NCBI RefSeq assembly: GCF_009650215.1
Contig: NZ_CP045851.1
Span: forward strand, 3,003,001 to 3,067,000
DNA from: Actinomarinicola tropica
Lineage (GTDB): Bacteria > Actinomycetota > Acidimicrobiia > Acidimicrobiales > SKKL01
Reading direction: 5' to 3'
DNA: 64,000 bases
Positions 10,247 through 48,656 of the stretch are shown in pieces; within the stretch, counting starts at the first letter, position 1; every line of letters starts with the position of its first letter. The notes under the pieces are model-generated. The model ran no database searches. It was not told the DNA's origin and saw nothing but the letters and a program-made list of their open reading frames with translations. Position numbers and translations under genes: made by a program.

Positions 10247-10393
10247 ATGGCCGATGTCAAAGATCCGGTGTGTGGGATGGTGATCGCCGAATCAGACGCT
10301 GTGGCGACCGTCGAGCACGGTGGCTCGACGTACTACTTCTGCAGCCAGGACTGCGCAGAGGAGTTCCGCGAGAACCCTGACGATTACACCTAG
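10247..10393 (+). CDS. YHS-domain small protein, first gene of the nuo-like operon
   Basis: 48 residues from an ATG preceded by GAAGGAGGG. It is essentially one YHS domain: DPVCGMVI near the start and TYYFCSQDCAEEFRENP near the end give three cysteines in the usual positions (CGM ... FCSxxC). YHS peptides are associated with copper or mercury binding, often beside P-type ATPases. Its stop is 3 bp before nuoA, so it is co-transcribed with the complex I-like genes. A metal-handling or assembly role for that complex is possible but not shown. Confidence 0.85.
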   Translation: MADVKDPVCGMVIAESDAVATVEHGGSTYYFCSQDCAEEFRENPDDYT

Positions 10394-10396
10394 CAC

Positions 10397-10759
10397 ATGG
10401 CCGCTCTGGGGTCGCTCGGTGCGGCGCTCGCCGTCTTCGTCTCTGCCACCGTCGCGCTCGTGGCGCTTCGGTCGGCAAGCGATGCCATAGCGGGGGTGGG
10501 CGAGACGGCATCGGAGCGGGTGCCGTTCCTCGGCGGCCATCCACCGGAGACGCACGCGTGGAGCCGGTTCCACGCCCGCTACTACGTGATGGCGCTGTTG
10601 TTTCTCGCCTTCGACATGGAGATGGTCTTCATGTACCCGTGGGCTGTCGTGTTCGTCCGGGAAGGAGGGATCGCCCTCGCCGAGATGGGCATGTTCATCA
10701 CGATCCTGCTCCTGGGCGTGCTCTACGCCTGGCGGGAGCGGGCGCTGCGGTGGGCCTGA
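10397..10759 (+). CDS. nuoA: NADH-quinone oxidoreductase subunit A-like protein
   Basis: 120 residues with three predicted membrane helices, the normal NuoA size. The diagnostic segment FHARYYVMALLFLAFDMEMV is present, including the Asp and Glu of FDMEMVFMYPWA that sit near the quinone cavity in complex I. The end overlaps the next gene's GTG start by 10 bp. Unlike the following subunit, this one looks canonical. Confidence 0.92.
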   Translation: MAALGSLGAALAVFVSATVALVALRSASDAIAGVGETASERVPFLGGHPPETHAWSRFHARYYVMALLFLAFDMEMVFMYPWAVVFVREGGIALAEMGMFITILLLGVLYAWRERALRWA

Positions 10760-12069
10760 GGGCTGCGGTCGATCGGGTCGCAGCGCAAGCTCCCGTGCCG
10801 GTGTTCGCCGTGGCGGGCATGGGCGCCCAAGTACAAGTCGATGACCTCCTGCTGGAGCCTCGGCTGCGCCTAGTCGACTCACCTGCTGCGGCGAACGTGC
10901 TGTTGATCGCCGGAGCGGTGCCACCTCACCTCTCCACGCAGCTCGCACAGCTGCACGATGCCTCGTCGCGACCACGCGTGCCGCTGTGGTGGTCGCTGGG
11001 CTCAAGCCTCGTGCCACCGATCCCACCGATGGTGCAGGTCCACGAGGTCGGCCCTTCGGGCCTCGTCGACGCCGTCGTCCACACCCACCGGGCTCTCCTG
11101 CTCGGCGAGCTGCCCTCGAGCCCTCCGGTACTTCCGGACGAGGACCCCGCGCCGTGGCGAGGGGTCGGCCCGTTCGGCCAGGGCGGAACGGGGATGACCG
11201 GAGGGGTGCCCTACGGGCGCCCGATGGCCGAAGTCGCTCCGGACCGAGACGGCCTGCGCCTGGACCAGCTGACCGTCCGCATCGGTCCGTTCTTCGCTCG
11301 CTTCCCGACCGGTCTCGTGCTCGCGGCCCGACTGCAGGGCGACGTGATCCAGCAAGCTGAAGTCATTGCGGCCCCCGAGGGGGAGCCAGCTGTCGAGATC
11401 GATGTGCGGACCCCCTTCCGCCAGGCGTTGCACGCCCCGGTTCCGGTGTCGGTCCTGGAGCTGGAGCGCGCCCGCTCGCACCTCCGCTCGATCGCGTCGG
11501 CCCTCGTTGCGCACCAGCTGTCCTCGCTCGCTCGACGGGTCCTCCGGTTCGCGAACCAGGCGCACCCGGATCAAGCTGAGGACGTCGAGCAGTTGCGCCG
11601 TCTCCTGCGCCGCTCACAAGTGCTCGGCTGGGCCACCAGGGGGGTCGGGACGATTCCGGCCGCCCAGCTCGAGGGCACGGCGACCGGACCCGTCGCCCGC
11701 GCGTCCGGAGTCGAGCAAGACGAGCGAGCCGCCGATCCCGCCTATCTCGGGCTCGGCTTCGAACCGGTCATCCACGACGGCGGTGACGCACGCTCTCGCA
11801 TCGCCCAGCGGCTCAACGAAGCAGACCAGGCCCTGAAGCTGGCCGGGCGGGCGCGCGATCGCTACCACGACCCCGAGGCGCCGTTGGAGTCACCCCGGGG
11901 ACGGCTGGCCGTAGGCGACCTACCGGCACAGCGTCTCCTTCCGCTGCTCCCGGCCGTGCTCGAAGGCATGGAGTGGGGCGATGCGGTGTCCACCGTGGTG
12001 AGCCTGGACCTCGATACCGACGAGGTCTTGGCGCTGCGCTCCCCCGACCGCGAGCTGCCAGTCCCGTGA
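10750..12069 (+). CDS. Cysteine-free NuoB/NuoD-like fusion subunit
   Basis: 439 residues from GTG 10750, which overlaps nuoA. The first 110 or so residues follow the NuoB fold pattern: ANVLLIAGAVPPHLSTQLAQ corresponds to the conserved (A)DLMIVAGxVxxKMAPxLxx block, and PLWWSLGSSLVPP to the MGxCASSGG block. From about residue 150 (VPYGRPMAEVAPDRDGLRLD) the protein resembles the NuoD / [NiFe]-hydrogenase large-subunit family. There is not one cysteine in the whole protein, so cluster N2 cannot be bound and the PGCPPRP ligand block is absent. It therefore looks like a structural fusion that caps the membrane arm without electron transfer. The NuoD-like assignment is less certain than the NuoB-like one. 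Confidence 0.65.
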   Translation: MGLRAAVDRVAAQAPVPVFAVAGMGAQVQVDDLLLEPRLRLVDSPAAANVLLIAGAVPPHLSTQLAQLHDASSRPRVPLWWSLGSSLVPPIPPMVQVHEVGPSGLVDAVVHTHRALLLGELPSSPPVLPDEDPAPWRGVGPFGQGGTGMTGGVPYGRPMAEVAPDRDGLRLDQLTVRIGPFFARFPTGLVLAARLQGDVIQQAEVIAAPEGEPAVEIDVRTPFRQALHAPVPVSVLELERARSHLRSIASALVAHQLSSLARRVLRFANQAHPDQAEDVEQLRRLLRRSQVLGWATRGVGTIPAAQLEGTATGPVARASGVEQDERAADPAYLGLGFEPVIHDGGDARSRIAQRLNEADQALKLAGRARDRYHDPEAPLESPRGRLAVGDLPAQRLLPLLPAVLEGMEWGDAVSTVVSLDLDTDEVLALRSPDRELPVP

Positions 12070-13001
12070 GGGCCTACCTGGAACCCGGTGCGGCAGTCGC
12101 CTCCGTGGCGTTTGCCATGGCCATCGGCGTCTATGTCGTGGCGGTCATCGACGGCACCGCCAGCCGCCTGGTCGCTGGAGGGGGCCGCAGCGACCTCGGC
12201 GCGCTCCTCGTCGATCCGCTCCGCACCGTCGCAGTGCTCCTCACCCAGCGGCGTCGACGCACCGAGCGCCCTGATGCGCCTGGGTGGGCCCTGGCGCCAG
12301 GTCTGCTCGGCGGACTCGCCGCAACCGGCCTCGCCGTCGTCCCTGTCGGCCCTGGCGCGGCGGTGGCGGACCCAAGTACCGGATTCGTCGTCTTCTCCGC
12401 GGCCATTGCGTTCGTGATGATCGCCGTGTTCCTGCACGGGTGGTCACCGAACTCGCTGTTTCCCATGATCGGCGCGTACCGCTACGGCGCCCAAGCACTG
12501 TCCCTGCAGATCCCGTTCCTCCTGGCCATGCTGGCGACTGCGCTCCCCGCCGAGTCGCTGGCCGTGATGGACATCGTCGAAGCCCAAGCTGACCTGTGGA
12601 ACGTGGTTCGCCAGCCGCTCGGTCTCCCGATCTACCTCATGGTCGGAGTGGGGGTGAGCTTTTGGGGCCCGTTGAACCTGCCCGACGGTGCCGACCTCGT
12701 CGGCGGGACGTCAGCCGAGGACGCTGGCACAGACCGGCTCGCTTGGGAGATTGCCCGTGCCGCAATGCTGGTCGCCATCGCCGCGATGGGGGCAGCGGTG
12801 TTCCTCGGTGGCTGGTGGGGCCCCCTGCTGCCCGGGCCGGTCTGGATGGTGCTCAAGACGATGGGGGTGCTGGCCGTTCTGGTCGCGAGCCGGCATCTCT
12901 TGGCCCGCGTCCGGATCGAGCCGTTCGTCGTCGCCTGCTGGGCTGTGTTCATCCCGCTGGCGTTGGTGAACATCTTCGTGAGCGGAGCACTCCTGCTGTG
13001 A
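12066..13001 (+). CDS. nuoH: Divergent NuoH-like membrane subunit
   Basis: 311 residues from GTG 12066 (4-bp GTGA overlap), about eight membrane helices. DIVEAQADLWNVVRQPLGL and PFVVACWAVFIPLALVNIF align with late NuoH helices. NuoH normally has a conserved ERKxxGRxQxRxGPNR loop after helix 1 and acidic residues in the quinone-site loop; here the first reads VIDGTASRLVAGGGRSD and the second WGPLNLPDGADLVGG, so both are degenerate. This fits a complex that no longer handles quinone in the standard way. It overlaps nuoJ by 4 bp. Confidence 0.75.
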   Translation: MRAYLEPGAAVASVAFAMAIGVYVVAVIDGTASRLVAGGGRSDLGALLVDPLRTVAVLLTQRRRRTERPDAPGWALAPGLLGGLAATGLAVVPVGPGAAVADPSTGFVVFSAAIAFVMIAVFLHGWSPNSLFPMIGAYRYGAQALSLQIPFLLAMLATALPAESLAVMDIVEAQADLWNVVRQPLGLPIYLMVGVGVSFWGPLNLPDGADLVGGTSAEDAGTDRLAWEIARAAMLVAIAAMGAAVFLGGWWGPLLPGPVWMVLKTMGVLAVLVASRHLLARVRIEPFVVACWAVFIPLALVNIFVSGALLL

Positions 13002-13567
13002 CCAGGTCTCTGACCGTTGACGTGCTGTTCTGGTGCTTCGCCGTCGGAAGCGTCGTCACCGCCTACCTGGTGTTCCGAACCGACTCCATGGTCCGTGCCG
13101 CATTCTGGCTGCTCGCCTCGTTCGTCGGGGTGGGGGCGATCCTGGTGATGTTGGCGGCCGAGTTCCTCGGAATGGTGCTGATCCTGATGATGGCCGGCGA
13201 GATGTTGATCATGGCTGTCGTGATGGTCATGTACATGATGAACCCGGCCGGTCTGAACCCAATGTTCATGGTGCACCAGCACCGCTTCGCTGTGGGCGCC
13301 GGCGTGGTGTCGTTCGTCGGCCTGTCCGTCGTGGCCCTCACGGTCGACTTCCCCGACCAGCCGGTCGATCCTGCGATCGACGCCACCGCCGAACTCGGCT
13401 TCGAACTGCTCGGCGACTCGATGCTGGTGTTCCAGACCGCTGGCGTCGCCCTGCTCGCCACGATGATCGGTGCCATCGCGCTGGCCAGCCGCAATGGCCG
13501 GTTCGGAACGGCTGACGAGGGGTCGCAAGAGCCCTCGCTGGAAATTGAGGAACTCGAATCGCCATGA
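12998..13567 (+). CDS. nuoJ: NuoJ-like membrane subunit
   Basis: 189 residues from GTG 12998, overlapping nuoH by 4 bp. It has five hydrophobic helices in NuoJ order: VLFWCFAVGSVVTAYLVF, RAAFWLLASFVGVGAILVML, EFLGMVLILMMAGEMLIMAV and two more. The third-helix block, usually xxQVxVYAGAIxVLFLFVVML, here carries MMAGEML with a buried Glu. The tail is acidic. Position between H and K matches the usual gene order. Confidence 0.8.
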   Translation: MTRSLTVDVLFWCFAVGSVVTAYLVFRTDSMVRAAFWLLASFVGVGAILVMLAAEFLGMVLILMMAGEMLIMAVVMVMYMMNPAGLNPMFMVHQHRFAVGAGVVSFVGLSVVALTVDFPDQPVDPAIDATAELGFELLGDSMLVFQTAGVALLATMIGAIALASRNGRFGTADEGSQEPSLEIEELESP

Positions 13568-13869
13568 CACTTCAAGCACTCCTCGTCGTCGCCGCGGCAC
13601 TGTTCGCCATCGGTCTGTACGGAGCGATCAGCCAGCAATCCTTCGTCATGTTGATGATGGGCCTCGAGCTGATGATCAACGGCGCCCTGCTCGCCCTCAT
13701 CGCTCTCTGGGCACTGAGCTCCGGAGGCAACCCGCAGGGACAGATGTTGGCGATCGTGTTCATGGCTGTGATGGCGATCGAGATGGCGCTCGGGTTCGCC
13801 CTCATCACGAACGTGTACCGGGTGCGTCGGGCCGACATCACCGAGAAGCTGCGGAGGCTCAAGGGATGA
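13564..13869 (+). CDS. nuoK: NuoK-like membrane subunit
   Basis: 101 residues, three helices, the standard NuoK length. Both buried glutamates used for proton transfer in complex I are present: GLELMINGALLAL in helix 2 and AIEMALGFALI in helix 3. ATGA overlaps join it to nuoJ and nuoL. This subunit looks functional. Confidence 0.9.
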   Translation: MTLQALLVVAAALFAIGLYGAISQQSFVMLMMGLELMINGALLALIALWALSSGGNPQGQMLAIVFMAVMAIEMALGFALITNVYRVRRADITEKLRRLKG

Positions 13870-15869
13870 CGGTCGCCCTCCTCTTGGTCCTTCCGGTCCT
13901 GGGATCCGCATCGGTCCTGGGGCTGCGGCATCGGCCTCGTGCGGTCGGTGCTGCTTCGGTCGCCTCGGCGGTCGCGACCCTCGCCGTCGCCGTGGTGGCA
14001 GCGGCGGCCGAACCCGAACTGGCATGGCGCTGGAGTGACGCTCTCGAACTGAGCGTCTCCGTCGACGGCTTCGCCCGAGTCATGGTCGTCCTAGTCTCCG
14101 CCGTGGCTGCACCCGTGCTGGCCTATGCCGCCGCCACCGTCGAGGAGGGCCGCACGAGACTGCTCGCCCTCATGCTGGGTTTCGTCGCCGCGATGGAGCT
14201 CCTCGTCGTGGCATCCGACCTGCTCACCCTCCTGTTCGCGTGGGAGCTGATCGGTGCGTGCTCGTGGGCGCTCATCGGGCACGGCTGGCGCGAACGGTCG
14301 AACAGCGCCGCCGCGGCGCAGGCGTTCATCACGACCCGCGTCGGCGACCTGGGTCTCTACATGGCCGCCGGAATGACGTTCGCGGCGACGGGCGGGTTTG
14401 GATACGACGATCTCGCCGCCGTCGACGGCACTCACCAGCACGCCCTCGCCGCAGGAATCTTGCTCGCCGTCGCTGCCAAGTCGGCGCAGCTCCCGTTCTC
14501 CCCATGGTTGTTCTCGGCCATGGCGGGCCCGACCCCGGTGTCGGCGCTGCTGCACTCCGCGACCTTGGTTTCGGCTGGCGCGTACCTGCTCATCCGGGTG
14601 GCTCCGGCGCTGGAGGCTGTCGGATGGTTCCTGCCTGCCGTCGCGGGCATCGGGATGGCGACCGCCCTGGCGGGTGGCGTGATCGCTGTACTTCAGGCGC
14701 AGGCAAAGCGAGTGCTGGCCGCCTCGACGTCGGCGCAGTACGGGCTGATGTTCGTGGCCGTCGGAGCCGGTTCGACCGCTGCCGCTGGCGCCCAGCTCGT
14801 CACCCACGCAGCGTTCAAGTCGTTGCTGTTCCTCGGCGCCGGGGTCGCCATCCATGCGGCAGGTAGCGGTGACCTGGGCGGCATGGGCCTGGGCCGGGTG
14901 CTGCCGCGCATCGCCGGGCTGTCGCTCGTGGGTGCGGCCGCCCTCGCAGCCATCCCGCCGCTCGGCGGAGCGTGGTCGAAGCAGGAGATCGGCGCGGCCG
15001 CCGCGCACAGCAGCCTGTGGCTGCTCCTCGGGGTTCTCGTCGCTGGCGGTCTGAGCGTGGCCTACGCCTTCCGGTACCAGCTCCTCGCCTTCGGGCGGGG
15101 TTCCGCCGACGGCGCCATCGGTCGCCGCGTCGACGCTCAGCCAACGACAGCGGAGCGCTGGTCGCTCGGCGTCCTCGCCGCCATCACCGTGGGTCTGTCC
15201 CTGTTGTGGCTGCCGGGAAGCGGTGAGGTCTTGGAGCGGGCGACCGGCGGTGTGCTGTTCGAGGCTCCCCTGTGGGAGGTGGCCGTCACGCTCGCCATCA
15301 CCGGCGCCGTCGCCGCCGTTGTGGTGTGGGCGTGGCAGGCTCATCGCCTGAACGCGTCGGCACCAGAGGGGACTCTGGCGGTGGTAGCGGACTGGTACGG
15401 CTTGGCCCGGCTGAGCCGGGTGGTGGTGGTCGACTCGACGTTGGCGTTGTCCCGTGGTCTTGCCCGCGTCGACGACCGGGTCGTGGACGCTGGCGTGCGC
15501 GGCGCCGAGCGGCTCACTCGCACGCTGTCTCGGCTCGCCTGGAGACGTGCAGAGTGGAGCCTCGACGTTCTCCTCCACGGGCTGGCCGAGGCGGTCGGCC
15601 TCGGGGCCCGAGGGGCTCGCAGGGCGGACGAGCGCTCCGTCGACGGTGCCGTCCGGGTGCTGGCGGCCCTCACCCTCAAGAGCGCCGATGTCTCGGGAGT
15701 CGCCGACGACCGCGTCGTCGACGGGACGGTGGAGGGTTCTGCACGGCTCGTCGGGATCGGCGGACACGCGAGTCGCAAGCTCCAGACCGGCCAAGCCCAC
15801 CACTACTACGTGATCGTGGCGGTGGGCTTCGTCGTGGCCGCCGCAGTCCTTCTGGCCCTGTCGAGCTGA
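13866..15869 (+). CDS. nuoL: NuoL-like antiporter-type subunit
   Basis: 667 residues. The first 500 or so form the antiporter-like core, with LLFAWELIGACSWALIG (helix 5 Glu), AKSAQLPFSPWLFSAMAG (helix 7 Lys), and SALLHSATLVSAG (His). These are the residues of the proton channel, so proton movement is plausible. The C-terminal 170 residues (LALSRGLARVDDRVVDAG and LTRTLSRLAWRRAEWSLD) form the long amphipathic region corresponding to the lateral helix, ending in LQTGQAHHYYVIVAVGFVV as in normal NuoL. A 28-bp gap leads to nuoM. Confidence 0.92.
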   Translation: MTVALLLVLPVLGSASVLGLRHRPRAVGAASVASAVATLAVAVVAAAAEPELAWRWSDALELSVSVDGFARVMVVLVSAVAAPVLAYAAATVEEGRTRLLALMLGFVAAMELLVVASDLLTLLFAWELIGACSWALIGHGWRERSNSAAAAQAFITTRVGDLGLYMAAGMTFAATGGFGYDDLAAVDGTHQHALAAGILLAVAAKSAQLPFSPWLFSAMAGPTPVSALLHSATLVSAGAYLLIRVAPALEAVGWFLPAVAGIGMATALAGGVIAVLQAQAKRVLAASTSAQYGLMFVAVGAGSTAAAGAQLVTHAAFKSLLFLGAGVAIHAAGSGDLGGMGLGRVLPRIAGLSLVGAAALAAIPPLGGAWSKQEIGAAAAHSSLWLLLGVLVAGGLSVAYAFRYQLLAFGRGSADGAIGRRVDAQPTTAERWSLGVLAAITVGLSLLWLPGSGEVLERATGGVLFEAPLWEVAVTLAITGAVAAVVVWAWQAHRLNASAPEGTLAVVADWYGLARLSRVVVVDSTLALSRGLARVDDRVVDAGVRGAERLTRTLSRLAWRRAEWSLDVLLHGLAEAVGLGARGARRADERSVDGAVRVLAALTLKSADVSGVADDRVVDGTVEGSARLVGIGGHASRKLQTGQAHHYYVIVAVGFVVAAAVLLALSS

Positions 15870-15897
15870 TGCCGACATCGACGCACACGGAGCTCAC

Positions 15898-17418
15898 GTG
15901 CTGACCACCGCCATCTTCATCCCGATCGCTGCCGCCGCCGTGTTCGCGCTTCTCCCCCGGCGGCTCCGATCCCCGGCCGATGCGGGATCTGAAGCCGACG
16001 ATCCGTGGGCGTCCCGGCTGCGTCTGATCGCCAGCGTGGTCGGTGTCGTTCCCCTGATTCTCCTCCTCGGAGCGTGGGCCCGGTTCGACGGCGGCGGCGG
16101 CTTCGAGCTCGTCGAGTCGACCGAGTGGATCCCGACGTTGGGTGTCGGCTACCGGGTCGGCGTCGACGGCTTGTCGCTCCCGCTCGCCCTCATGGCCGCT
16201 CTCGTGTTCGCCGTCGCCATCGCCTACCCAGTCGACGTGCGCGGCCGCGCCGGGCCCTACTACGCGCTCATGCTGTTCCTCGAGGGCGTGTCGGTCGGCC
16301 TCTTCCTGTCGCTCGACCTGTTCCTCTTCTTCGTGTTCTGGGACCTGAGCCTGGTCGGCATCTACTTCCTGATCGGCGTGTGGGGCCACGGTGACGCCCG
16401 GCGCTCGGCGCTGAAGTTCTTCGTCTACACCTTCGCCGGTTCGCTCGCCCTCTTGCTCGCCATCCTCGGCCTCTACCTCGCCACCGAACCCCGGACGTTC
16501 GACATGGCAGAGATCATCCGCCAGCAACCACTGCCCGCAGGCGGGGTCTACGCAACGCTGGTCTTCTTCGGGTTCTTCATCGGCTTCGCGGTGAAGACGC
16601 CGATCGTCCCCTTCCACACCTGGCTCCCACCCGCCCACGTCGACGCCCCGGGGCCGGCATCGGCCGTCCTCGCCGGTGTGCTGCTCAAGATGGGCACGTA
16701 CGGGTTCGTGCGCGTCCTCATGTCCATGCAGCCCGAGACCTTCGCCCGCTTCGCGTTCCCGATCGGCGTGGTCGCCGTCGTCTCCATCGTCTACGGCGCG
16801 CTCGTCGCCATGGCCCAGACGAACCTCAAACGGCTCATCGCCTACACCAGCGTCAACCACATGGGCTACGTGATGCTGGGCTTGGCGGCAGCGGGCGCCA
16901 GCCTCGCCGGACAGGAAGGCGCCCAGGCGCTGGCCCTGACCGGCGCCACCGTGGAGATGATCGCGCACGGCCTGATCACCGGCGCCCTGTTCCTCATCAG
17001 CGGATCGATCCTCACCCGAGGCGGGACGTACGAGATGGACGCGTACGGCGGCCTCGCTGCTCGGGCCCCGGCACTCACCGGCATCACCGTCGTCGCGGCC
17101 TTCGCCAGCCTCGGCATGCCGGGTCTCGCCGGGTTCGTCGCCGAGTTCCAGATCTTCGCCGGCGCCCTCGCCGTCTACCCCTGGCTCGCCGGCATCGGCC
17201 TGCTCGGCATCGTCATCACCGCTGCGCTGTTCCTGCGCATGCTGCAACAGGTCTTCCTCGGCCCGCTCCCGGAGCGGTGGTCGACGTGGCCAGACCTGGG
17301 CTGGGTCGAACGGGTGACCCTTGGCGCTCTCGTCGTCCTCATCATCGGCATCGGCGTCGCCCCGGCCCTGCTGCTCGACGCGATCGACACCTTCGCCGGC
17401 CCCTTCGTCGGCAGATAG
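15898..17418 (+). CDS. nuoM: NuoM-like antiporter-type subunit
   Basis: 506 residues from GTG 15898, about 14 helices. The helix-5 block reads FVFWDLSLVGIYFLIG, with Asp where NuoM normally has Glu. The helix-7 Lys is present (GFAVKTPIVPFHTWLP) and so is the second Lys (LLKMGTYGFVRVL). The protein also has ITGALFLISGSIL and MPGLAGFVAEFQI, classic NuoM segments. The Glu-to-Asp change is conservative. Next gene begins 19 bp after the stop. Confidence 0.92.
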   Translation: MLTTAIFIPIAAAAVFALLPRRLRSPADAGSEADDPWASRLRLIASVVGVVPLILLLGAWARFDGGGGFELVESTEWIPTLGVGYRVGVDGLSLPLALMAALVFAVAIAYPVDVRGRAGPYYALMLFLEGVSVGLFLSLDLFLFFVFWDLSLVGIYFLIGVWGHGDARRSALKFFVYTFAGSLALLLAILGLYLATEPRTFDMAEIIRQQPLPAGGVYATLVFFGFFIGFAVKTPIVPFHTWLPPAHVDAPGPASAVLAGVLLKMGTYGFVRVLMSMQPETFARFAFPIGVVAVVSIVYGALVAMAQTNLKRLIAYTSVNHMGYVMLGLAAAGASLAGQEGAQALALTGATVEMIAHGLITGALFLISGSILTRGGTYEMDAYGGLAARAPALTGITVVAAFASLGMPGLAGFVAEFQIFAGALAVYPWLAGIGLLGIVITAALFLRMLQQVFLGPLPERWSTWPDLGWVERVTLGALVVLIIGIGVAPALLLDAIDTFAGPFVGR

Positions 17419-17437
17419 CGCACGACGGCCAGCGACG

Positions 17438-18913
17438 ATGGACCACACCTTGGGCTCTTCGACGATGGACGACACCATGGGCTCTGCGGCGATGGACATG
17501 GGCTCGATGCTGGGCGACGTCGTCCCCGAACTCGTCCTCGTCGTCGGCGGTGTCATCGTCTTGCTCTACGCCCTCGCCGCACCCCGACGCCTCCAGGGCG
17601 GCGCTGCCGTCCTGGCCATGCTCACCGTCGCCATCGCCGCCGCCGCGACGATCCCCATGTTGGACGGGCCCGAGGCATACACGTTCGCCGAGACCTACGC
17701 CCGCGATCTGCCGGCCGTCTGGGCGAAGCTGATCGTCCTGGTGGCGACCGCTGCGGTGATCGCACTCTCGGTGCCCTGGTTCCGCAGCGATCCCCGCAGC
17801 GGCGAGTACTACACCTTGCTGCTGTTCTCCTCCCTCGGTGCCGTGCTCCTCGCCGGTGCGACCGATCTGAAGCAGTTCGTCGTCTCGATGCTGCTGTCCT
17901 CAGCGACCGGGTTCGTCCTCGTGGCCTACCACCGGTTGTCCCGCGCCTCGGCCGAAGCAGGCATCAAGTACTACCTCCTCGGGGCGATGACCAGCGCCAG
18001 CATGCTGATCGGCGTCGCCTACCTGTTCGGCTTGGGCGGAACCACGACGTTGCCGGGTCTGAGCACCGGCCTCGCCGCCGAAAGCGGGACCGGCTTGGCC
18101 GTCGCGGCCGCCCTGGTCATCATCGCCGTCGCGTTCAAGCTCGGCGCCGTGCCCGCACACGCCTGGATGCCCGACGTCGCCGAAGGCGCACCAGCGCCTG
18201 TCGCCGCGTTCGTGACGTCGGTACCCAAGGTCGGAGCGTTCCTCTTCCTTGCACGACTGATGCTCGCGCTGCCGCTCGATGGTCTCGGCTGGCGACCTCT
18301 CGTCGCCGTCATCGCCGCCGCCACGATGACCCTTGGCAACCTGGCCGCGCTGTGGCAGGACGACGTGCGACGCCTATTGGGCTGGTCGTCGGTCTCCCAG
18401 ACCGGCTACGGACTGCTCGCCATCGTCGCCCTCGAACGGAGCGATCTCGCCCTGCCGGCCTTGCTGTACTTCCTCCTCGCCTACGTCCTCGCCAACGTCG
18501 CTGCCTTCGGTGTTGTCGTACAGCTGCGGGGGCGCACCGACCGGTCCGCCTACAGGGGTCTGGCCCGAGCCCGTCCGGTCCTGGCCGCCATCCTCACCAT
18601 CACCATGCTCTCCTTCATCGGTGTGCCCCCACTCGCTGGCTTCGCCGCCAAGCTGGCCTTGTTCGCCGCCGCCATCGACGCAGGCTATGTCTGGCTGGCG
18701 ATCCTGGGAGCGATCAACACGGTGGTGTCCATCGCCTACTACGCCCGGGTCTTGGCGCCGATGTACTTCAAGGATCTAGAGGGTCCGGTCCCGGTCCTCA
18801 GCCGCAGTGCCGGGATTGCTGCGGTCGCCACCGGCGCGGCCGTGGTGCTCGTCGGCATCGGAGCAGAACCGTTTTTTGGTGCGTTCGACGGGATCGGTCT
18901 GCTGCCCGGCTGA
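17438..18913 (+). CDS. nuoN: NuoN-like antiporter-type subunit
   Basis: 491 residues. The ATG at 17438 gives a Met/Asp-rich N-terminus (MDHTLGSSTMDDTMG) before the first helix. SAEAGIKYYLLGAMTSASML and FKLGAVPAHAWMPDVAEGAP are diagnostic and keep the helix-7 Lys; SVPKVGAFLFL keeps the second Lys. The helix-5 segment FVVSMLLSSATGFVLVAY has no acidic residue where NuoN normally has a Glu, so this channel may be altered. It is the last Nuo gene in the operon. Confidence 0.9.
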   Translation: MDHTLGSSTMDDTMGSAAMDMGSMLGDVVPELVLVVGGVIVLLYALAAPRRLQGGAAVLAMLTVAIAAAATIPMLDGPEAYTFAETYARDLPAVWAKLIVLVATAAVIALSVPWFRSDPRSGEYYTLLLFSSLGAVLLAGATDLKQFVVSMLLSSATGFVLVAYHRLSRASAEAGIKYYLLGAMTSASMLIGVAYLFGLGGTTTLPGLSTGLAAESGTGLAVAAALVIIAVAFKLGAVPAHAWMPDVAEGAPAPVAAFVTSVPKVGAFLFLARLMLALPLDGLGWRPLVAVIAAATMTLGNLAALWQDDVRRLLGWSSVSQTGYGLLAIVALERSDLALPALLYFLLAYVLANVAAFGVVVQLRGRTDRSAYRGLARARPVLAAILTITMLSFIGVPPLAGFAAKLALFAAAIDAGYVWLAILGAINTVVSIAYYARVLAPMYFKDLEGPVPVLSRSAGIAAVATGAAVVLVGIGAEPFFGAFDGIGLLPG

Positions 18914-32651: not shown

Positions 32652-33206
32652 TCAGAACCGCTCAACTGCGGCGATGACGCGACGAGCTACATCTGCCACG
32701 TCGCCGACTCCGTCGACCCGGACCAGGCGACGCTTTGTCTCGTACCAGGTCAGCACCGCTCCCCCATCGTGCTGCCACACCTGGATGCGATGGGCAATGA
32801 CGTCTGGTTTGTCGTCGGCGCGGCCTCGTTGAAGTAGTCGACTCCGAACCTCGGAGTCGGGGACGTCGAGCGCGATCACGCACTCGACGGGAGCTTCAAG
32901 ATCGTCGAGCCAATCGTCCAGCGCCTCGGCCTGGGTGAGCGTGCGGGGTGCTCCGTCAAGCACCCACCCTCCCGAACCGGTCGCCCCGACCAACCGCGTC
33001 TCCAAGATCGCCAGCACGTCGGCGGTGTCAACGAGCTCGCCGGCGGCCACCGTCGCCTCGATCCGTTCGCCCAACGGAGACTGCTTCGCCACCTCGTCGC
33101 GAAGGGCCGCCCCAACGGACAGGTGAATGACCGTGAGGTGCTCGGCAAGCAGTCGAGCGTGCGTGCTCTTGCCAGAGCCCGGCGGACCGAGCATGACCAC
33201 CCTCAT
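32652..33206 (-). CDS. adk: Adenylate kinase (short form, no LID zinc domain)
   Basis: 184 residues. P-loop GPPGSGKSTHA, the NMP-binding LSVGAALRDEVAKQSPLGE and DGAPRTLTQAEALD, and RLLQRGRADDKPDVIAHR place it in the short-LID adenylate kinase group. It balances ATP, ADP and AMP. The start overlaps the ackA stop by 4 bp, tying it to ATP-making acetate kinase. Some usual residues are changed (DGAPRT for DGFPRT), so it is a diverged, probably additional copy. Confidence 0.9.
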   Translation of the reverse strand: MRVVMLGPPGSGKSTHARLLAEHLTVIHLSVGAALRDEVAKQSPLGERIEATVAAGELVDTADVLAILETRLVGATGSGGWVLDGAPRTLTQAEALDDWLDDLEAPVECVIALDVPDSEVRSRLLQRGRADDKPDVIAHRIQVWQHDGGAVLTWYETKRRLVRVDGVGDVADVARRVIAAVERF

Positions 33207-34309
33207 GGTCGTTCCGCCGACCAGCCGAGGAGCCCGCGCACCTGCCGTGTGATCTCGAGGTCTTCGCGAGAGGTGATGACGACGGTCCTCACGGCAGCGC
33301 CAGCAGGGCTGATATCGGTGTCGCTGGAAGCCGTCTCGTTCGCTCTACGGTCGACGTTCACTCCGAGAAACCCTAAGCCTTCAGCAGTGTCCGCCCGGAC
33401 GGGGGCTGCGTGTTCTCCGACACCACCGGTGAAGACGAGTAGGTCGAGACCACCCATGGATGCCGCCATGGCGGCGATGCCCTGACGTAGCCGATGCACG
33501 TACACGTCGAAGCCGAGCACGGCACCGGGGTCACCCCCATCCCGTGCGGCAAGAACCTTGCGCATATCGCCGCTCTCGACAAAGCCTGCGAGCCCCGCGT
33601 GGCGCTCGAGGCCTTCGGCGACCTCGCCGGCGTCGAGTCCGCCGTCGGTGAGGAGCCACAGCAGCAGTCCGGGGTCGACCGCTCCGGCGCGGGTGGCCAT
33701 GACGATGCCGTCGAGTGGGGTGAAACCCATCGTGGTGTCGATGGATCGTCCATCGACCACGGCGCACAGCGAAGCGCCACTTCCGAGGTGGCAGGTGATG
33801 ATGCGAGCAGTGCCGGGAAGTCCAGCGATGGTCGCCCCACGGGCTGCGGCCCAAGCGTGGGAGAGGCCGTGGAACCCGAACCGATGGAGGTGCCATCGCT
33901 CTCGCCATTCGGATGGCAGTGCGTACGTGCGGGCTGCCATCGGCAACGTCGAGTGGAAGGCGGTGTCGAAGCAGGCGACGTGCGGACTCTGCGGCAAGAT
34001 CCGACGGGCGGCGGCGAGTGCCGACAGCGCGCGGTCCTGATGCAGCGGTGCCAGTGGAGCGAGGGCGGCGATCGTTGCTTCCACCTCGGCCGTCACGAGC
34101 GTTGGCTCCCTGAGATCACTCCCGCCGTGAACGATGCGATGGCCGACGGCGTCGACTGCTGGCCCGTCGGCGAGGAACCGACGAAAATCGGCGGCGGACC
34201 CCCCGCCGTCCCACGGATCGACATCGTGCCCTTTGACGACGTCGCTGCGCTCGTCGATGATCCGCAACTTGAGCGTGGAGGAGCCAGCGTTCACGACGAG
34301 GACGTGCAT
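33203..34309 (-). CDS. ackA: Acetate kinase
   Basis: 368 residues, ATG with GGAGGTGG upstream. Acetyl phosphate + ADP to acetate + ATP. Key blocks are present: VVNAGSSTLKLRI, VGHRIVHGG, the catalytic Asp in CFDTAFHSTLP, FGFHGLSH, HLGSGAS, the active-site Arg in ATRAGAVDPG, and TGGVGEHA. Acetyl phosphate would come directly from the phosphoketolase two genes upstream; no phosphotransacetylase is present in the cluster, which fits. Coupled to adk. Confidence 0.95.
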   Translation of the reverse strand: MHVLVVNAGSSTLKLRIIDERSDVVKGHDVDPWDGGGSAADFRRFLADGPAVDAVGHRIVHGGSDLREPTLVTAEVEATIAALAPLAPLHQDRALSALAAARRILPQSPHVACFDTAFHSTLPMAARTYALPSEWRERWHLHRFGFHGLSHAWAAARGATIAGLPGTARIITCHLGSGASLCAVVDGRSIDTTMGFTPLDGIVMATRAGAVDPGLLLWLLTDGGLDAGEVAEGLERHAGLAGFVESGDMRKVLAARDGGDPGAVLGFDVYVHRLRQGIAAMAASMGGLDLLVFTGGVGEHAAPVRADTAEGLGFLGVNVDRRANETASSDTDISPAGAAVRTVVITSREDLEITRQVRGLLGWSAERP

Positions 34310-34346
34310 CGGTACCACCTCCGTCGATGACAAGCGAACGAGCTGG

Positions 34347-37300
34347 TCACAATTCCACGTCCACTGCGGTGTTGCCGGGGAGGCGCACTCGACGATGCCC
34401 GACGCGCACCTCGATGGGTGCCGAGGGGCCGTCGGCCGCTGTGGTCAGCCGTAGCCGGTCGTGGTCGAGGGACACGCCAATGAGCTGTCCGCGATGGTGA
34501 AGCCGGAAGTCGACGTGGTGCAGCCCGCTCGGGAGGTGGGGATGGAAGCTCGGCGGATCGTCCAACAGAGCTAGGCCAGCGAAGGCGCGGGTCACGATGT
34601 CGATCGTCCCCGCCATGGCACCCAGGTGGATCCCTTCAGCGGTGGTGCCGCCCTGGGTGTCGTCGAGGTCGGCGACGAGGGCGTCGCGGAACAGGTCCCA
34701 GGCGCGGGCGGGATCGAGTCGGGCGAGAACCGACGCGTGCACGACCCGGCTGAGGGTCGAGCCATGGGCGGTGCGGTCGAGGTAGTAGTCGACTGTCCGC
34801 CGAAGGGAATCGCCGCTCACGCGATAGCCGAGGCGGTCGAGCTGCGCGAGGAGCTGATCGGGTCCGAGCAGGTAGAGGACCATGAGGACGTCGGCCTGCT
34901 TGGAGAGCTTGTAGCGGTTGGTGGCGTCACCTTCGGATTCGAGGATGAGGTCGAGGCGGCCGATGTTGCCGTAGGTCGCGCGGTAGTGGTCCCAGTCGAA
35001 CTCGGTGAGGTCTGTGTAGCCGTCGAACTGGCTGATCACGCCGTCCTCGTGGAAGCAGACGTTCAGCCGTCGGCTGAGTTGTTCCCAGCGTTCGACCTCA
35101 CCGATGGCGATGTCGAGTCGGTCCCGGGCTTCGTCGCCAGCGTAGCCGGCCAGCTCAGCGAGCGTGTCGACGGCTCGCCCGCACACCCAGGCTGCGAGGA
35201 CATTCGTGTAGGCGTTGTCGCGAAGCCCGGAGCCGGGCGTGCCCGGGTAGCCGTCGTGGTACTCGTCGGGTCCCATCACGCCCTCGATGTGGAACCGGTC
35301 GCTGGCAGCATCGTGGGTAGCGAGGGAGGCGAAGAGACGGGCCACCTCGATGATCAGATCCGTACCCCGCTCGGCCAGCCAGGCACGATCGTCGGTGGCC
35401 TGGTAGTGGAGCCAGGCGTTGAAGGCGACGGCCAGGCCGACGTGGTACTGGCGTCGCGAGTTGTCGGGCATCCACCTACCGGAGCGCAGGTTGAAAAGCT
35501 GTTCGGGCGTCTCCTCGCGGCCGTCGCTGCCGCTCTGCCACGGGAAACGGGCTCCGGCAAGGCCGGCGACGCGGGCAGCCTGCCGGGCAGCCGGGAGTCG
35601 ACGCCAGCGGTACTCGAGCAGGGCCCGGCTGACCTCGGGGAGGTGGACCCCGACGACGGGGAGGACGAACAGCTCGTCCCAGAAGACGTGACCTCGATAC
35701 CCCTCCCCGTGCAGACCACGTGCGGGGACTCCGGCGTCGACCTCGGCGGTGTGGGGCGAGATGGCGCTGAGCAGGTGGTATGCGTGCAAGTTGAGGACCA
35801 GCTGTACATCTCGCTCTGCGTCGAGCTCGATGCGGAAGTGACCCCATAGGCGTCGCCACGCGGCCTCGTGGGCTTCGAGACGTCCGGTGAAGCCGCCGTG
35901 TGCCCTCGAGAGCTCTGCGAGGGCACCGTCTTCCGGTGAGGCGATCGCCACGTCACGTGAGGTGGCGAAGGCGATGGTCTTGTCGACGACGATTGGGCTC
36001 TGGTCTGTCAGCTCGATCGTCAGGTCGTGGACGTGTCGTCCGTCGCCGAGGTCGATGTGGCCGCTGCGCACGGGGGTGACACTGGCGACGGTCGTGCGAG
36101 CGGCAGTCGCGATGCGGATCCGGCTCTGGCTGGTCTCGGTCACCACCACGAGGGTGTCGGCAGCGGCATCCCAGGCATCGACGTCGGTGAGGTGACGGTT
36201 TGCGAGCGCCGCGTACTCGGCGACGTTGGAGTTCGTGATCCCGGCGTCGATCCCGGAACGGACGGTGACGACCCCGGTCCAACCGTCGGCGACGAGAGTC
36301 GTTTCCAGAGCAGCGACGTGGGGACGGTCCATCGAGGCCAGGCGCCGCTGGGTGAGGCGCAGCCGCCGGCCGTCGCCGTCTGTGAGGATCGCCGTGCGGG
36401 TGAGCACGGCGCGACGGAGGTCGAGCTCACGTCGTTCGTCGCTGATGTGCAGTCCACCGTCTGACCACCAGCGGCCCTCGTCGATGCGCACATCCAGCAG
36501 CAGCCAGTTCGGGGCGTTGACGAGGTGCTCGTCCTCCACCTCGCGGTCTTCGACCATGCTCGTAAGACGGTTGTAGATCCCCGCCAGGTAGGTCCCGGGA
36601 TAGTGGATGCCGTCGGCGCGCCGTTCGGGAGCTGCGCCGCGGGTGCCCAGGTAGCCGTTGCCGACGGTGGTGAGCGCCTCGCGGTGACCTTCGTGTGCGG
36701 GGTCGAAGCCGGCGTAGGCCGCGACCCAAGGGTCGGTGCGCAGCACACCGAGGTCGAGTAGCGCGACGTCGTCGAGCACGAGGTCAGCCCCAGCTGCTTC
36801 CAGTGCGGCGCGCTGGTCGGCTCGGTTGACCCCGACCACCAGCCGGAACCCTCCGGCGCTGGCCGCGGCCACTCCCGATACCGCGTCTTCGACCACCGCG
36901 ACCCGGGCGGGGTCGACCGCTAGGCGCCGCGCCGCTTCCAGGAACATGGCCGGGTCGGGTTTGCCGGGTAGTGCGAGATCGACTGCGAGAGCACCGTCGA
37001 CGACCACGTCGAAGAGGTCTTTGATCTCGGCGGCGGCGAGCAGCTTGTCTGCGTCGCGGCTGGCGGTCACGAGGCCGACCGGGATGCCACCGGCGCGGAG
37101 CCGTCGAATGAGGTCCGTCGTACCGGCGAACACCCGGACTCCGTGCTCGGTCAGCCGTTTCAGGTACAGATCGTTCTTGCGGGCGGCGAGACCGTGCACG
37201 GTCCACGCGTCAGGAGGGTCGCCTTCCTGGCCCAGCGGAACGTCGACGCTGCGCGAGTCGAGGAACGTGGCGACGCCGTCTTCGCGCGAGCGGCCGTCGA

Positions 37301-37550
37301 CATACCTGCGGTAGTCGCCGCCGGGGTCGAAGGGGATCGGTGCGGCACGCCCCGCCCGCGGGTCGTGCAACGCGTCGTCGAACAGCTCGGCCCATGCGGC
37401 GGCGTGCACCGACGCGGTGTCGGTGACCACACCGTCCATGTCGAAGATGACGGCGTCGTACGGCGGCGCCGCCCCTGTCGGCGCCAATGGAAGAGGATCG
37501 CGCGGAGACTCGGGCTGGCGACGTTCCTCGCGGGGGTTGGCGGCGACCAC
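34347..37550 (-). CDS. Fused beta-phosphoglucomutase / GH65 disaccharide phosphorylase
   Basis: 1,067 residues from GTG 37550, which has GGAGG 11 bases upstream and lies 14 bp after the phosphoketolase stop. Residues about 25-250 are a HAD phosphomutase: VIFDMDGVVTDTASVHAAAW, TASRDADKLL, LPGKPDPAMFLEAARR, VVEDAVSGVAAA. Residues about 265-1067 are GH65: VGNGYLGTRGAAPER, GHVFWDELFVLPV, and the catalytic Glu in GVMGPDEYHDG. GH65 enzymes split trehalose, maltose or kojibiose with phosphate to beta-glucose-1-phosphate, which the HAD domain turns into glucose-6-phosphate without ATP. The substrate cannot be told from sequence. Confidence 0.93.
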   Translation of the reverse strand: MVAANPREERRQPESPRDPLPLAPTGAAPPYDAVIFDMDGVVTDTASVHAAAWAELFDDALHDPRAGRAAPIPFDPGGDYRRYVDGRSREDGVATFLDSRSVDVPLGQEGDPPDAWTVHGLAARKNDLYLKRLTEHGVRVFAGTTDLIRRLRAGGIPVGLVTASRDADKLLAAAEIKDLFDVVVDGALAVDLALPGKPDPAMFLEAARRLAVDPARVAVVEDAVSGVAAASAGGFRLVVGVNRADQRAALEAAGADLVLDDVALLDLGVLRTDPWVAAYAGFDPAHEGHREALTTVGNGYLGTRGAAPERRADGIHYPGTYLAGIYNRLTSMVEDREVEDEHLVNAPNWLLLDVRIDEGRWWSDGGLHISDERRELDLRRAVLTRTAILTDGDGRRLRLTQRRLASMDRPHVAALETTLVADGWTGVVTVRSGIDAGITNSNVAEYAALANRHLTDVDAWDAAADTLVVVTETSQSRIRIATAARTTVASVTPVRSGHIDLGDGRHVHDLTIELTDQSPIVVDKTIAFATSRDVAIASPEDGALAELSRAHGGFTGRLEAHEAAWRRLWGHFRIELDAERDVQLVLNLHAYHLLSAISPHTAEVDAGVPARGLHGEGYRGHVFWDELFVLPVVGVHLPEVSRALLEYRWRRLPAARQAARVAGLAGARFPWQSGSDGREETPEQLFNLRSGRWMPDNSRRQYHVGLAVAFNAWLHYQATDDRAWLAERGTDLIIEVARLFASLATHDAASDRFHIEGVMGPDEYHDGYPGTPGSGLRDNAYTNVLAAWVCGRAVDTLAELAGYAGDEARDRLDIAIGEVERWEQLSRRLNVCFHEDGVISQFDGYTDLTEFDWDHYRATYGNIGRLDLILESEGDATNRYKLSKQADVLMVLYLLGPDQLLAQLDRLGYRVSGDSLRRTVDYYLDRTAHGSTLSRVVHASVLARLDPARAWDLFRDALVADLDDTQGGTTAEGIHLGAMAGTIDIVTRAFAGLALLDDPPSFHPHLPSGLHHVDFRLHHRGQLIGVSLDHDRLRLTTAADGPSAPIEVRVGHRRVRLPGNTAVDVEL

Positions 37551-37563
37551 TGGGGCGGTCCTC

Positions 37564-39999
37564 CTAGACGGGCTCGTCGAGGGGCTCGTTCTCGCCTCGC
37601 ATCTCGGGCCCAGGTACGCCGGTCCACTGCCAGTCGCGGATCTCGGGGAGGTCCTCGCCGTGGGTGCGGATGTACTGCGTGTGCTCGATGAGCTTGTTCT
37701 TGAGTGCCTCGCGGGCGTGGGCGGCGACGTTGTGCAGGCGCGGCACGAAGTCGAGTGCCGCCATAGCAAGGTTGAAACGGTCGATCCGGTTGAGGACGCA
37801 CATGTCGAACGGCGTCGTCGTGGTGCCTTCCTCGACGTAGCCGCGCACGTGGAGGTTGTGGTGGTTGGTGCGGCGGTAGGTGAGCCGGTGGATCAGCCAC
37901 GGGTAACCGTGATAGGCGAACAGAACCGGGCGGTCGGTCGTGAAGAGGGCATCGAAATCACGGTCGGACAGACCGTGGGGGTGCTCCCTGTCGTCCTGGA
38001 GACGCATGAGGTCGACGACGTTGACGACCCGGATCCGTAGGTCGGGGAACCAGCCGACGAGCAGCTCGGCTGCAGCCAGGGTCTCCATGGTCGGCACGTC
38101 ACCAGCGCAGCCGAGCACGATGTCAGGCTCGCCGGCGGCGTCGGTGCTCGCCCACTCCCAGATCCCGATGCCCTTGGTGCAGTGCACGATGGCGTCATCG
38201 ATGTCGAGGTACTGGAGCTGAGGTTGCTTGCCAGCAACGATCACGTTCACGTACTGCCGGCTGCGAAGGCAGTGGTCCGCGACCGACAGCAGGGTGTTGG
38301 CGTCGGGCGGCAGGTAGACCCGGATGACCTCCGCCTTCTTGTTGACGACGTGGTCGATGAAGCCGGGATCCTGATGGGAGAAGCCATTGTGGTCCTGGCG
38401 CCAGACGTGGGAGGTCAGCAGGTAGTTGAGCGACGGAATCGGGCGCCGCCACTCGATGTCGTTGGTGACCTTGAGCCACTTGGCGTGCTGGTTGAACATC
38501 GAGTCGACGATGTGGATGAACGCTTCGTAGCAGGAGAAGAGACCGTGACGACCAGTGAGCAGGTAGCCCTCGAGCCAGCCCTGGCAGAGGTGCTCGGAGA
38601 GGATCTCCATCACTCGTCCATCGGGCGCGAGGCCATCGTCGCTGTCGACCGTGCCGGCGTTCCAGGTCCGGTCGGTCACATCCAGCACCGCGTTCAGGCG
38701 ATTGGAGTTGTTCTCGTCGGGGGCAAAGACGCGAAACGTCGACATGTTCTCCGCCATGACGTCGCGCAGGAACGTTCCCAGCACACGGGTGGCCTCGACC
38801 GCACCCGTACCGGGAGCGTCGACGGGGACTGCATAGTCACGGAAGTCGGGCATTGCGAGGTCTCGCACGATCGGGCCGCCGTTGGCGTGCGGGTTGGCGC
38901 TCATCCGTCGATCGCCCCCCGGGTGAAGTTCTCGGATCGCCGGCACGGGCGCGCCGTCGTCGTCGAAGAGCTCCTCTGGTCGGTAGCTGCGCAGCCATCG
39001 CTCCAGCACGGCCCGGTGGTCGTCGTCGCTGCGAGCGTCGGCGAACGGCACCTGGTGCGACCGCCACGACCCTTCGACCGGGCGGCCGTCGACCTCCGCA
39101 GGCCCGGTCCACCCCTTCGGTGAGCGCAGGACCAGCATGGGCCACCGCGGCCGCTCGTTGAGCTCGCCGCTGCGGGCGCGTCGCTGGATCTCGGCGATGT
39201 CGTCGAGGCAGCGGTCAAGCGCCGCGGCGAACGCTTGGTGCATCGTGTCTGGGTCGTCGCCCTCGACGATGTGGGGCGTGTGGCCGAAGCCGCGCAGCAG
39301 CCCGTCAAGCTCGTCGCTGTCGATCCGAGCGAGCACGGTCGGGCTGGCGATCTTGTAACCGTTGAGGTGAAGGATCGGCAGCACTGCGCCGTCCCGGCGA
39401 GGGTCGATGAACTTGGTGGAGTGCCAGCTGGCCGCCAACGGACCGGTCTCAGCCTCACCGTCCCCCACCACCGCGGCGACGATCAGGTCCGGGTTGTCGA
39501 ACGCCGCCCCGTAGGCGTGTGCCAACGAGTAGCCGAGCTCCCCGCCCTCGTGGATCGATCCTGGCGTCTCGGGCGCCACATGGCTGGGGATCCCGCCCGG
39601 GAAAGAGAACTGGGTGAACAGCCGCCGCATCCCCGCCTCGTCCTGGGAGACGTCCGCGTAGACCTCGCTGTAGGTACCTTCGAGCCAGGCCGCGGCCACC
39701 GGACCGGGCCCGCCGTGGCCGGGACCCATCACGTACATCATGTCGAGATCCCGGGCGGTGATGGCCCGGTTCAGGTGGGCATAGATGAAGTTGAGCCCGG
39801 GTGTGGTGCCCCAGTGGCCAAGCAGGCGCGGCTTGACGTGCTCCGCCAGGAGCGGCTCGCGCAGCAGCGGATTGTCCATGAGGTAGATCTGTCCCACCGA
39901 CAAGTAGTTGGCTGCTCGCCACCAGGCATCGATGCGGGACACCGACTCGTCATGTAGGCGATGTTCCGTCGTTGTCACGGTCGGGTCGTCCTCGCTCAT
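37564..39999 (-). CDS. xfp: Xylulose-5-phosphate/fructose-6-phosphate phosphoketolase
   Basis: 811 residues, full length. ATG 39999 follows a GAGGT. The thiamine-diphosphate enzyme splits xylulose-5-P or fructose-6-P with phosphate to acetyl phosphate plus an aldose phosphate. Signature blocks are [65 protein letters not shown], and SPKGWTGP. The middle ([20 protein letters not shown]) is also typical. The first gene after GAPDH in the operon, 10 bp downstream of it. Confidence 0.96.
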
Positions 40000-40009
40000 C
40001 TGTCGTACC

Positions 40010-41098
40010 TCAGGGCGTCGAGACGTCGGAGTCGCTGGCCTGGGCGATCGGGTTCGTGGTGGCCGGTAGGAAGGTCTTGGTGATGCCCAGCGACTTGTCG
40101 GTCTTCGCGATCGACGTGGCTGCGTCAGCCTCAATGCCACTCATGGCTCGGATGCAGTCGATGGTCTCGGGAACAACGATCGCTTCGTTGTCTACTTGGA
40201 GGGTGAGGTAGACCTCTCGGCCGTCGGTGGAAAGGGAGTCCTCCCATACCGCCACCTCCCACATGTCGCCGCGTGGACGCCCCATGTCACGCATGAGCTC
40301 CACGACCGAGTTCGCCGCCACCACACCGTCCGCGGCGCGAACGAAAGCGATTCGGGGTTCGTCCGCCAAAGCTGCCTTGAGCTCCTCGATGCTGACCGGC
40401 CGGGTGGTCTCCACCATGGCGAAGTGGACGTGGCTCAGGTTGAACGGACCGGATCCGGCCATCGTGGTGATGTCGAGGTCAGGGAGCATGGTCTGGACGT
40501 CGGGTCCCTGGTGGCTCGGCACCTTCATCTCTGGCACAACCGTGTTGATCGTGCCGTTGATGTGTGACTCCCAGGGATCGGTTGCCCGCCGAAGAAGGAC
40601 CGCTCTGACGCGGTGGACCCAGCCTTGCCGGTGAAGCGCATGCATGGTGCGGCTGAGTGCCGTCGTGTTGCACGAGACAACCCGCGCCCAATCACGGTTG
40701 ATCGCATCGGCGTAGTTGACCTGCGCGCAGAAGGAGAGGCCAGTGAGTTCATGGCTTTCGCCGCCCTGCCAGATGCCCTTCACCCCGGCGGCCTCGTATC
40801 GAGCCTTGTTCGCAGCGGCAAGCTTCTTCGGGGCGCAGTCGGCCACGACGTCGACCGCCCCGAGGAGATCATCCAAGGTCCCCACGGTCGGTATTCCTGC
40901 CGCCTCCATCTCGGTGCGTGCGGCGTCGTCGGAGGCGAACACGCGGTGCCCGCGCTCAGCCGCGATCCGAATCCGATAGTCCGATGCCATATCGGCGATC
41001 CCGACCAGCTCCATGTCGTCTTGAAGCGTGACGGCATCGGCCACGCGCTTGCCGATCACGCCGTAGCCGTTGACCGCAACCCGAACCTTTTGATCCAT
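40010..41098 (-). CDS. Type II (archaeal-type) glyceraldehyde-3-phosphate dehydrogenase
   Basis: 362 residues, ATG with AAGGAG. NAD(P)-binding [14 protein letters not shown] and the catalytic Cys in [16 protein letters not shown] are typical of the type II family (archaeal Gap), not of ordinary bacterial GapA, whose active site reads SCTTN. Also seen: [20 protein letters not shown] and [15 protein letters not shown]. It would convert the glyceraldehyde-3-P released by the phosphoketolase to 1,3-bisphosphoglycerate. First gene of the leftward operon; regulon site 8 is 89 bp upstream. Confidence 0.9.
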
Positions 41099-45762: not shown

Positions 45763-45866
45763 GCAATCTCCATGATCGACTTTTCTTCCAACCGGACTGT
45801 GCCGCTACGGGTGGCGACCCGGACGCGAACGACCTCATCTTCGGTGGGTTCGGGCTGAGGATTCAT
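45759..45866 (-). CDS. 35-residue ORF coupled between copA and copB
   Basis: The ATG overlaps the copA stop and the stop overlaps the copB ATG, both as ATGA. The product begins [18 protein letters not shown] and ends [11 protein letters not shown]. No Cys, Met or His motif for copper binding beyond ordinary residues. Double coupling keeps ribosomes passing from copA to copB, so it is surely translated, but its protein function is unknown; it might serve only as a translational bridge. Confidence 0.65.
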
Positions 45867-48376: not shown

Positions 48377-48413
48377 CGTGTTCAGCTCTCCATTCCCCTG
48401 CAGGCCCTGAGGC

Positions 48414-48650: not shown

Positions 48651-48656
48651 TTCTAC

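Follow-up and report, generated by a model that had tools for sequence, protein, structure and literature searches.

What does the membrane arm of respiratory complex I (NDH-1) do when it is encoded apart from the modules that would feed it electrons? This question is raised by an eight-gene operon, nuoA, BD and nuoHJKLMN, which together with a small YHS-domain gene directly upstream occupies positions 10247-18913 of a 64,000-nucleotide stretch (hereafter the window) of the Actinomarinicola tropica chromosome (NZ_CP045851.1, positions 3,003,001 to 3,067,000). An original prediction, made from the letters of the window, described a complex I descendant that moves ions by another driving force or pairs with an unknown electron donor. 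Based on sequence comparison, we favour a redox-free, complex I-derived membrane complex that would use the proton motive force (PMF) to export Cu(I) under copper (or silver) stress. This reading is probable, if not strongly so. Involvement of the operon in the handling of copper or a similar soft metal, taken by itself, is very probable.

Gene content, redox sites and proton channels

The order of genes is YHS, nuoA, BD, nuoH, J, K, L, M and N (Table 1), with BD denoting a fusion of degenerate NuoB and NuoD. The membrane-arm set A, H, J, K, L, M and N is complete, homologous to that of complex I and in its operon order, and every one of the seven proteins exceeds its Pfam cut-off. Conversely, NuoC, E, F, G and I are missing, as E. 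coli queries match nothing within the window or within a second copy of the operon elsewhere in the genome. Both the presence of A, a B/D-like fusion, H, J, K, L, M and N and the absence of the other five had been predicted correctly. The tight overlaps described at the same time hold from nuoA through nuoL (4-10 bases), whereas nuoL and nuoM are spaced by 28 bases and nuoM and nuoN by 19. A same-frame alternative start of nuoN (TTG) lies upstream at 17321. Positions 10247-10393 do not belong to nuoA; they hold the separate YHS-domain gene, which had been overlooked.

A search of related genomes for the gene order retrieved dozens with all eight genes in this arrangement, and all eight are under purifying selection in this family (dN/dS 0.05-0.28). 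The operon is therefore not a product of chance. A pseudogene or relic was considered as well and dismissed in view of the dN/dS values and the invariant channel residues described below.

Sequence profiles and a structural model indicate that the B/D fusion is real. The N-terminal part of a profile built from 27 BD sequences matches NuoB/PSST chains (E 1.5e-8 to 6e-8, covering the segment SPAAANVLLIAGAVPPHL), and its C-terminal half matches NuoD-type chains more weakly. Comparison of BD with NuoB by hhalign provided an E value of 9.6e-6. In the AlphaFold2 model of BD (pLDDT 84.9, pTM 0.85), the segment 169-427 can be superposed on NuoD (Z 26.5, 2.7 A over 256 residues). The closest BD relative found outside this genome, from an Acidimicrobiaceae metagenome-assembled genome (MAG), is 83% identical. 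The BD protein of the window contains zero cysteines, and the fullest cysteine column of the family is occupied in 7 of 27 sequences. As no cysteine is conserved, cluster N2 cannot be formed by BD. By inspection of the alignment, the quinone motif GPxHPxTHG of NuoD is replaced by a GPFFxxxPxGL-type sequence. An energy-converting hydrogenase or Mbs complex differs in the same respect, since BD lacks the conserved cysteines for an Fe–S small subunit or a [NiFe]/Fe–S catalytic site. Selenocysteine, suggested by an in-frame TGA that the genome search reported in the BD genes of Rubrobacter, was dismissed because TGA is the terminal stop in 8/8 genes checked.

The channel and quinone sites were compared in 65-67 BD-type sequences (E. 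coli numbering). In NuoL, E144, K229, H254, H338, K342 and K399 are invariant; in NuoM, K234, K265 and E407 are invariant and E144 is D or E. NuoN features near-invariant K247 and K395, K217 is kept in 57/65 sequences, and E133 is lost in favour of Leu. NuoK retains Glu35 and Glu73. A different picture emerges for NuoH, where E228, R148 and K274 are kept and E220 is D or E, whereas E157, D213 and E216 are variable, and E218 and the quinone-side basic residues R37/R38/K66/K70 are lost; its quinone-cavity loops are degenerate. Judged by these residues, the family has preserved its proton channels but not its quinone cavity. The original prediction had listed the channel residues as kept in K, L and mostly M, in agreement with the alignment, and its description of a descendant of complex I that retains the membrane arm but cannot make the electron-transfer part has stood up.

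Metal-binding modules, methionines and copper genes

Beyond these losses, the operon departs from complex I by metal-binding insertions in BD and by methionine-rich NuoA, NuoJ and NuoK. In the Rubrobacter/Rhodobacterales clade, BD carries one to four HMBD domains according to motif counts (Pfam HMBD 95-107 bits in the two proteins scanned). His/Met-rich BD linkers are found in Streptomyces, Mycobacterium, Pseudonocardia and others; examples are MDHGGMDHGDMNHGGMDHG and MDHGGMDHGDMNHGGMDHGEMDHGDM (Nonomuraea L069). The clade of the window has a shorter BD linker, GQGGTGMTGGVPYGRPMA, together with the YHS gene immediately upstream of nuoA, and no HMBD domain was found elsewhere in its genome. A YHS gene is also located ~0.2-0.3 kb upstream of nuoA in a Chloroflexota MAG (L052), a Gemmatimonadota MAG (L053) and locus L119. 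The YHS protein likely plays, in trans, the part of the metal-binding domains fused into BD in other clades.

Methionines were compared in a family alignment of 70 BD-type and 15 canonical sequences. Their content is 8.7% vs 1.5% in NuoJ, 7.8% vs 3.05% in NuoK and 4.6% vs 1.7% in NuoA, and NuoH, L, M and N show no enrichment. Ten of the 20 near-invariant columns of NuoJ are methionines (Met31, 64, 65, 69, 72, 76, 80, 89, 91 and 142; P = 3e-6 for ten in invariant columns, given NuoJ's own Met frequency), accompanied by a conserved His93 and a new Glu68 in transmembrane helix 3 (TM3). Canonical complex I has mostly V, I, L, Y or P at the methionine positions and A at the position of Glu68. Conserved residues of the same kind are Met74, Met76, Met79, Met97 and His59 in NuoA, and NuoK gains invariant Met29 and Met70. 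The core motif of NuoJ, MM..EM..MA..M.M.M, recurred in 9/9 additional Pseudomonadota loci that were fetched after the motif had been defined.

The linkage of the operon to copper is well supported by its neighbourhood. Among Actinomycetota loci sampled regardless of context, 25/34 had copper-panel genes in the ~11 kb flank scanned, compared to 3/32 regions of 20 kb picked at random from these genomes (Fisher p 8e-8). The panel was defined by similarity at E 1e-6 to proteins mostly from plasmid loci and the window, and the statistic leaves out the two sampled loci identical to panel-source plasmids. With the Rubrobacter group removed, 12/21 loci and 1/20 control regions remained positive (p 5e-4). 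Copper genes outside the panel include CusA/CusB/CusF-like genes directly upstream of the operon in Novosphingobium L059, as assigned by eye. Plasmid copies adjoin copper-type P-type ATPases (copA), CsoR/CueR, copper chaperones, CopC/CopD, multicopper oxidases and DUF305 proteins, but these neighbours are not common to every plasmid copy. The second operon copy in this genome (575-584 kb, more precisely 575,500-584,000; L022), with a BD 78% identical to that of the window, is adjoined by a multicopper oxidase and a DUF305-like match. In the window itself, copper genes at 43.6-49.0 kb lie in the same lower-GC, transposase-rich stretch as the operon.

On Mycobacterium avium plasmid pMAH135 (L153, 10120-18262), the operon has genes for a heavy-metal P-type ATPase and an HMA-domain protein as neighbours. 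Positions 1-51,600 of the window have a GC fraction of 0.63-0.70, are transposase-rich and end near a tRNA-Lys (51551-51648), with the copper genes at the right end; this stretch looks like a genomic island.

Putative Cu(I) export and alternative readings

Because the redox sites are lost, the proton channels intact, metal-binding caps present, the A/J/K junction Met-rich and the operon linked to copper islands, we favour the model of a Cu(I)/H+ exporter. In this model, cytoplasmic Cu(I) would be gathered by the BD cap via its fused heavy-metal-binding domains or its His/Met-rich linker, and in the clade of the window probably via the separate YHS protein. The ion would then be passed on to a path lined by methionines where NuoA, J and K meet, which is the site of the complex I gate between the quinone cavity and the antiporters, and inward proton flow via NuoL/M/N would power its expulsion. 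Three antiporter-like subunits could give several protons per ion, which may be enough for a steep gradient. We infer that methionines line such a path and that Cu(I) is driven across the membrane by the flow of protons; for an outward direction of transport, the chances are about even. A functional likeness is provided by the HME-RND exporter CusA, a proton-driven antiporter whose channel methionines are proposed to relay Cu(I) as a methionine ladder (PMC7558416), although its fold and subunit composition are unrelated.

Considered more broadly, complex I may have given rise to a multi-subunit Cu(I)/H+ antiporter in which a metal-binding cap replaces the quinone site, a methionine-lined copper path replaces the E-channel region and protons take the reverse course through their channels. 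Such a complex would represent a class of heavy-metal exporters distinct from P1B ATPases and HME-RND pumps, and plasmids would have carried it across phyla. This wider claim we hold tentatively, as a serious candidate that falls somewhat short of probable.

Several observations weigh against copper export. The BD protein of the window itself has no HMBD domain and is poor in Met and His. No panel copper gene was present in the ~11 kb flank of 9/34 sampled loci, and the Pseudomonadota replicate was weaker (copper genes at 3/9 loci vs 0/11 controls). Moreover, only 5/8 TM3 methionines share one helix face; the stripe is significant for this subset, which was chosen post hoc, but all eight together are not one-sided.

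The gene order is known from the literature as partial NDH-1 operon 2, or nuoAHJKLMN, among the "marine adaptation genes" of Salinispora, Kocuria and Streptomyces SM17/SM18 (PMC3314556, PMC6002675, PMC6676996), so that the earlier remark that no described system with this exact gene set was known did not hold. Penn & Jensen 2012 and Almeida 2019 read the operon as a marine or osmotic adaptation. The published loci, matched here by gene order alone, consist of nuoA, a hypothetical protein and nuoHJKLMN, are horizontally spread and occur beside a complete nuo. In these papers the second gene is hypothetical or omitted and salt or osmotic adaptation is proposed with no link to copper, a word absent from the 2012 paper. 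Within the open-access literature, we found no paper that connects the operon with copper, gives the BD fusion a name or mentions the methionines.

A role in salt or osmotic adaptation, as a Mrp-like Na+(K+)/H+ antiporter or an ion pump, has been put forward for Salinispora, Kocuria and sponge Streptomyces and would be in line with the intact antiporter-like channels, with the published comparative genomics that ties nuoAHJKLMN to marine or hyperosmotic isolates and with the marine strains that host several of the plasmids. However, marine origin cannot tell salt from metal, and among the hosts in those publications are one strain from copper-rich mine water and one isolate from a copper miner or copper mine. 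The HMBD domains and His/Met-rich linkers, the copper-gene neighbours and the invariant methionines would all be left unexplained, and we regard this reading as unlikely. Mrp (CPA3) antiporters do have the antiporter-like subunits in common with the operon and likewise operate free of electron transfer, but they lack NuoH, NuoA and the NuoB/D parts, all of which have counterparts in the window, and no MrpE/F/G-like gene is among the eight operon genes. Two more antiporter-type genes near 2.84 Mb of the genome may be Mrp.

Copper might also act without crossing the membrane. In a copper-responsive proton pump or dissipator, Cu(I) bound to BD and NuoJ would gate proton flow and thereby protect or adjust the PMF. 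The sequence evidence for such a device is the same as for the exporter, the methionines lie at the NuoJ TM3 gate of the complex I water wire, and NuoH is not Met-enriched. Conversely, conserved methionines occur in several helices and loops of A, J and K, seemingly more than one sensing site needs, which makes this possibility comparably doubtful.

A complex that transfers electrons with a borrowed Fe–S partner, or that couples copper redox chemistry to proton pumping, is very unlikely. It would suit descent from complex I, the NuoB/NuoD relationship and fold of BD and the cytochromes c and multicopper oxidases that adjoin some loci, but is difficult to reconcile with the missing cysteines, the replaced NuoD motif and the lost or relaxed quinone-facing residues of NuoH; no Fe–S gene was seen regularly adjoining the operon. 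Copper, rather than the unknown electron donor considered originally, is the likely substrate or driver because of the YHS gene, the copper-island context and the methionine substitutions, none of which featured in the original prediction. An importer of copper (or Ag) or a metal-loading complex supplying cuproenzymes is about as unlikely, as the neighbours are chiefly resistance and efflux genes (copA, csoR, cueR, copB) and plasmid-borne metal islands usually detoxify, despite the multicopper oxidase genes beside several loci, the second copy in this genome included.

If export of Cu(I) is the true function, the operon would add a further class of bacterial copper exporter and a new explanation for a locus filed for >10 years as marine or osmotic adaptation. 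It would also be a natural complex I mutant with a full membrane arm, in which metal binding has taken the place of quinone chemistry at the coupling site. Complex I research has long asked how the quinone site drives proton movement far away from it, and with a redox-free version this coupling could be probed by means of a metal ion. On the plasmids of Mycobacterium avium and marine bacteria that carry the operon, copper may be a selective pressure.

Distribution and genomic setting

The eight genes occur at ~80 loci in at least four phyla (Actinomycetota, Pseudomonadota, Chloroflexota and Gemmatimonadota), where short contigs display only part of the set. At strong scores, BD was found in ~35/396 sampled genomes of the phylum of the window and in 10/397 of the phylum of Caenispirillum. 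It is encoded on twenty plasmid records, and several of the host plasmids come from marine strains. In a NuoM tree, 65 BD-type loci form one clade (support 100/99) apart from 15 canonical and second-type sequences. Phyla are intermixed within this clade, which indicates horizontal transfer. Three actinobacterial loci (L112, L113 and L114) form a deep separate branch of the clade.

A normal 14-gene nuo, the existence of which had been suggested as a check, is present in the closed 3.7 Mb genome at ~208-224 kb, where the E. coli NuoC, E, F, G and I queries match. The missing nuo genes are not near the window, as this complete nuo is a separate and distant operon (at a distance of ~0.9 Mb, assuming a circular closed contig). 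It is directly followed by a second partial nuo at 225-236 kb (225,300-235,600) without E, F and G, in which E. coli queries identify A, B, CD and H-M and the gene list a NuoN-like gene. This Streptomyces-type operon resembles that of the window as a partial nuo beside a complete one, but it retains B, C, D and I at normal similarity, and its NuoM does not group with the BD clade. This genome thus contains nuo operons of three kinds.

Table 1 Operon and copper-related features of the window
Feature	Position	Strand	Evidence
YHS metal-binding domain gene, 48 aa	10247-10393	+	Pfam YHS 52 bits; ends 4 bases before nuoA
nuoA, 120 aa	10397-10759	+	Pfam Oxidored_q4 94 bits
BD, fused degenerate NuoB + NuoD	10750-12069	+	profile matches, AlphaFold2 fold match to NuoD
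nuoH	12066-13001	+	Pfam NADHdh 141 bits
nuoJ	12998-13567	+	Pfam Oxidored_q3 74 bits
nuoK	13564-13869	+	Pfam Oxidored_q2 61 bits
nuoL, antiporter-like subunit	13866-15869	+	Pfam Proton_antipo_M 160 bits
nuoM, antiporter-like subunit	15898-17418	+	TIGR01972 NDH_I_M 476 bits, over cut-off
nuoN, antiporter-like subunit	17438-18913	+	Pfam Proton_antipo_M 184 bits
P-type ATPase, copper-type	43645-45762	-	Pfam E1-E2_ATPase/HMA
P-type ATPase, copper-type	45863-48451	-	Pfam E1-E2_ATPase/HMA
HMA-domain chaperone	48414-48698	-	Pfam HMA
CsoR-type repressor	48725-49009	+	Pfam Trns_repr_metal

Inside the putative island, positions 32652-41098 hold adenylate kinase, acetate kinase, phosphoketolase-like and type II GAPDH-like genes (by eye), possibly a carbon-shunt module that travels with copper resistance. 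In Halomonas sp. KO116, egtB/egtD of ergothioneine biosynthesis directly follow the operon (L044, 22015-24287), and egtB-like genes were recognised by eye just after nuoN in the similar Pseudomonadota loci L181 and L182.

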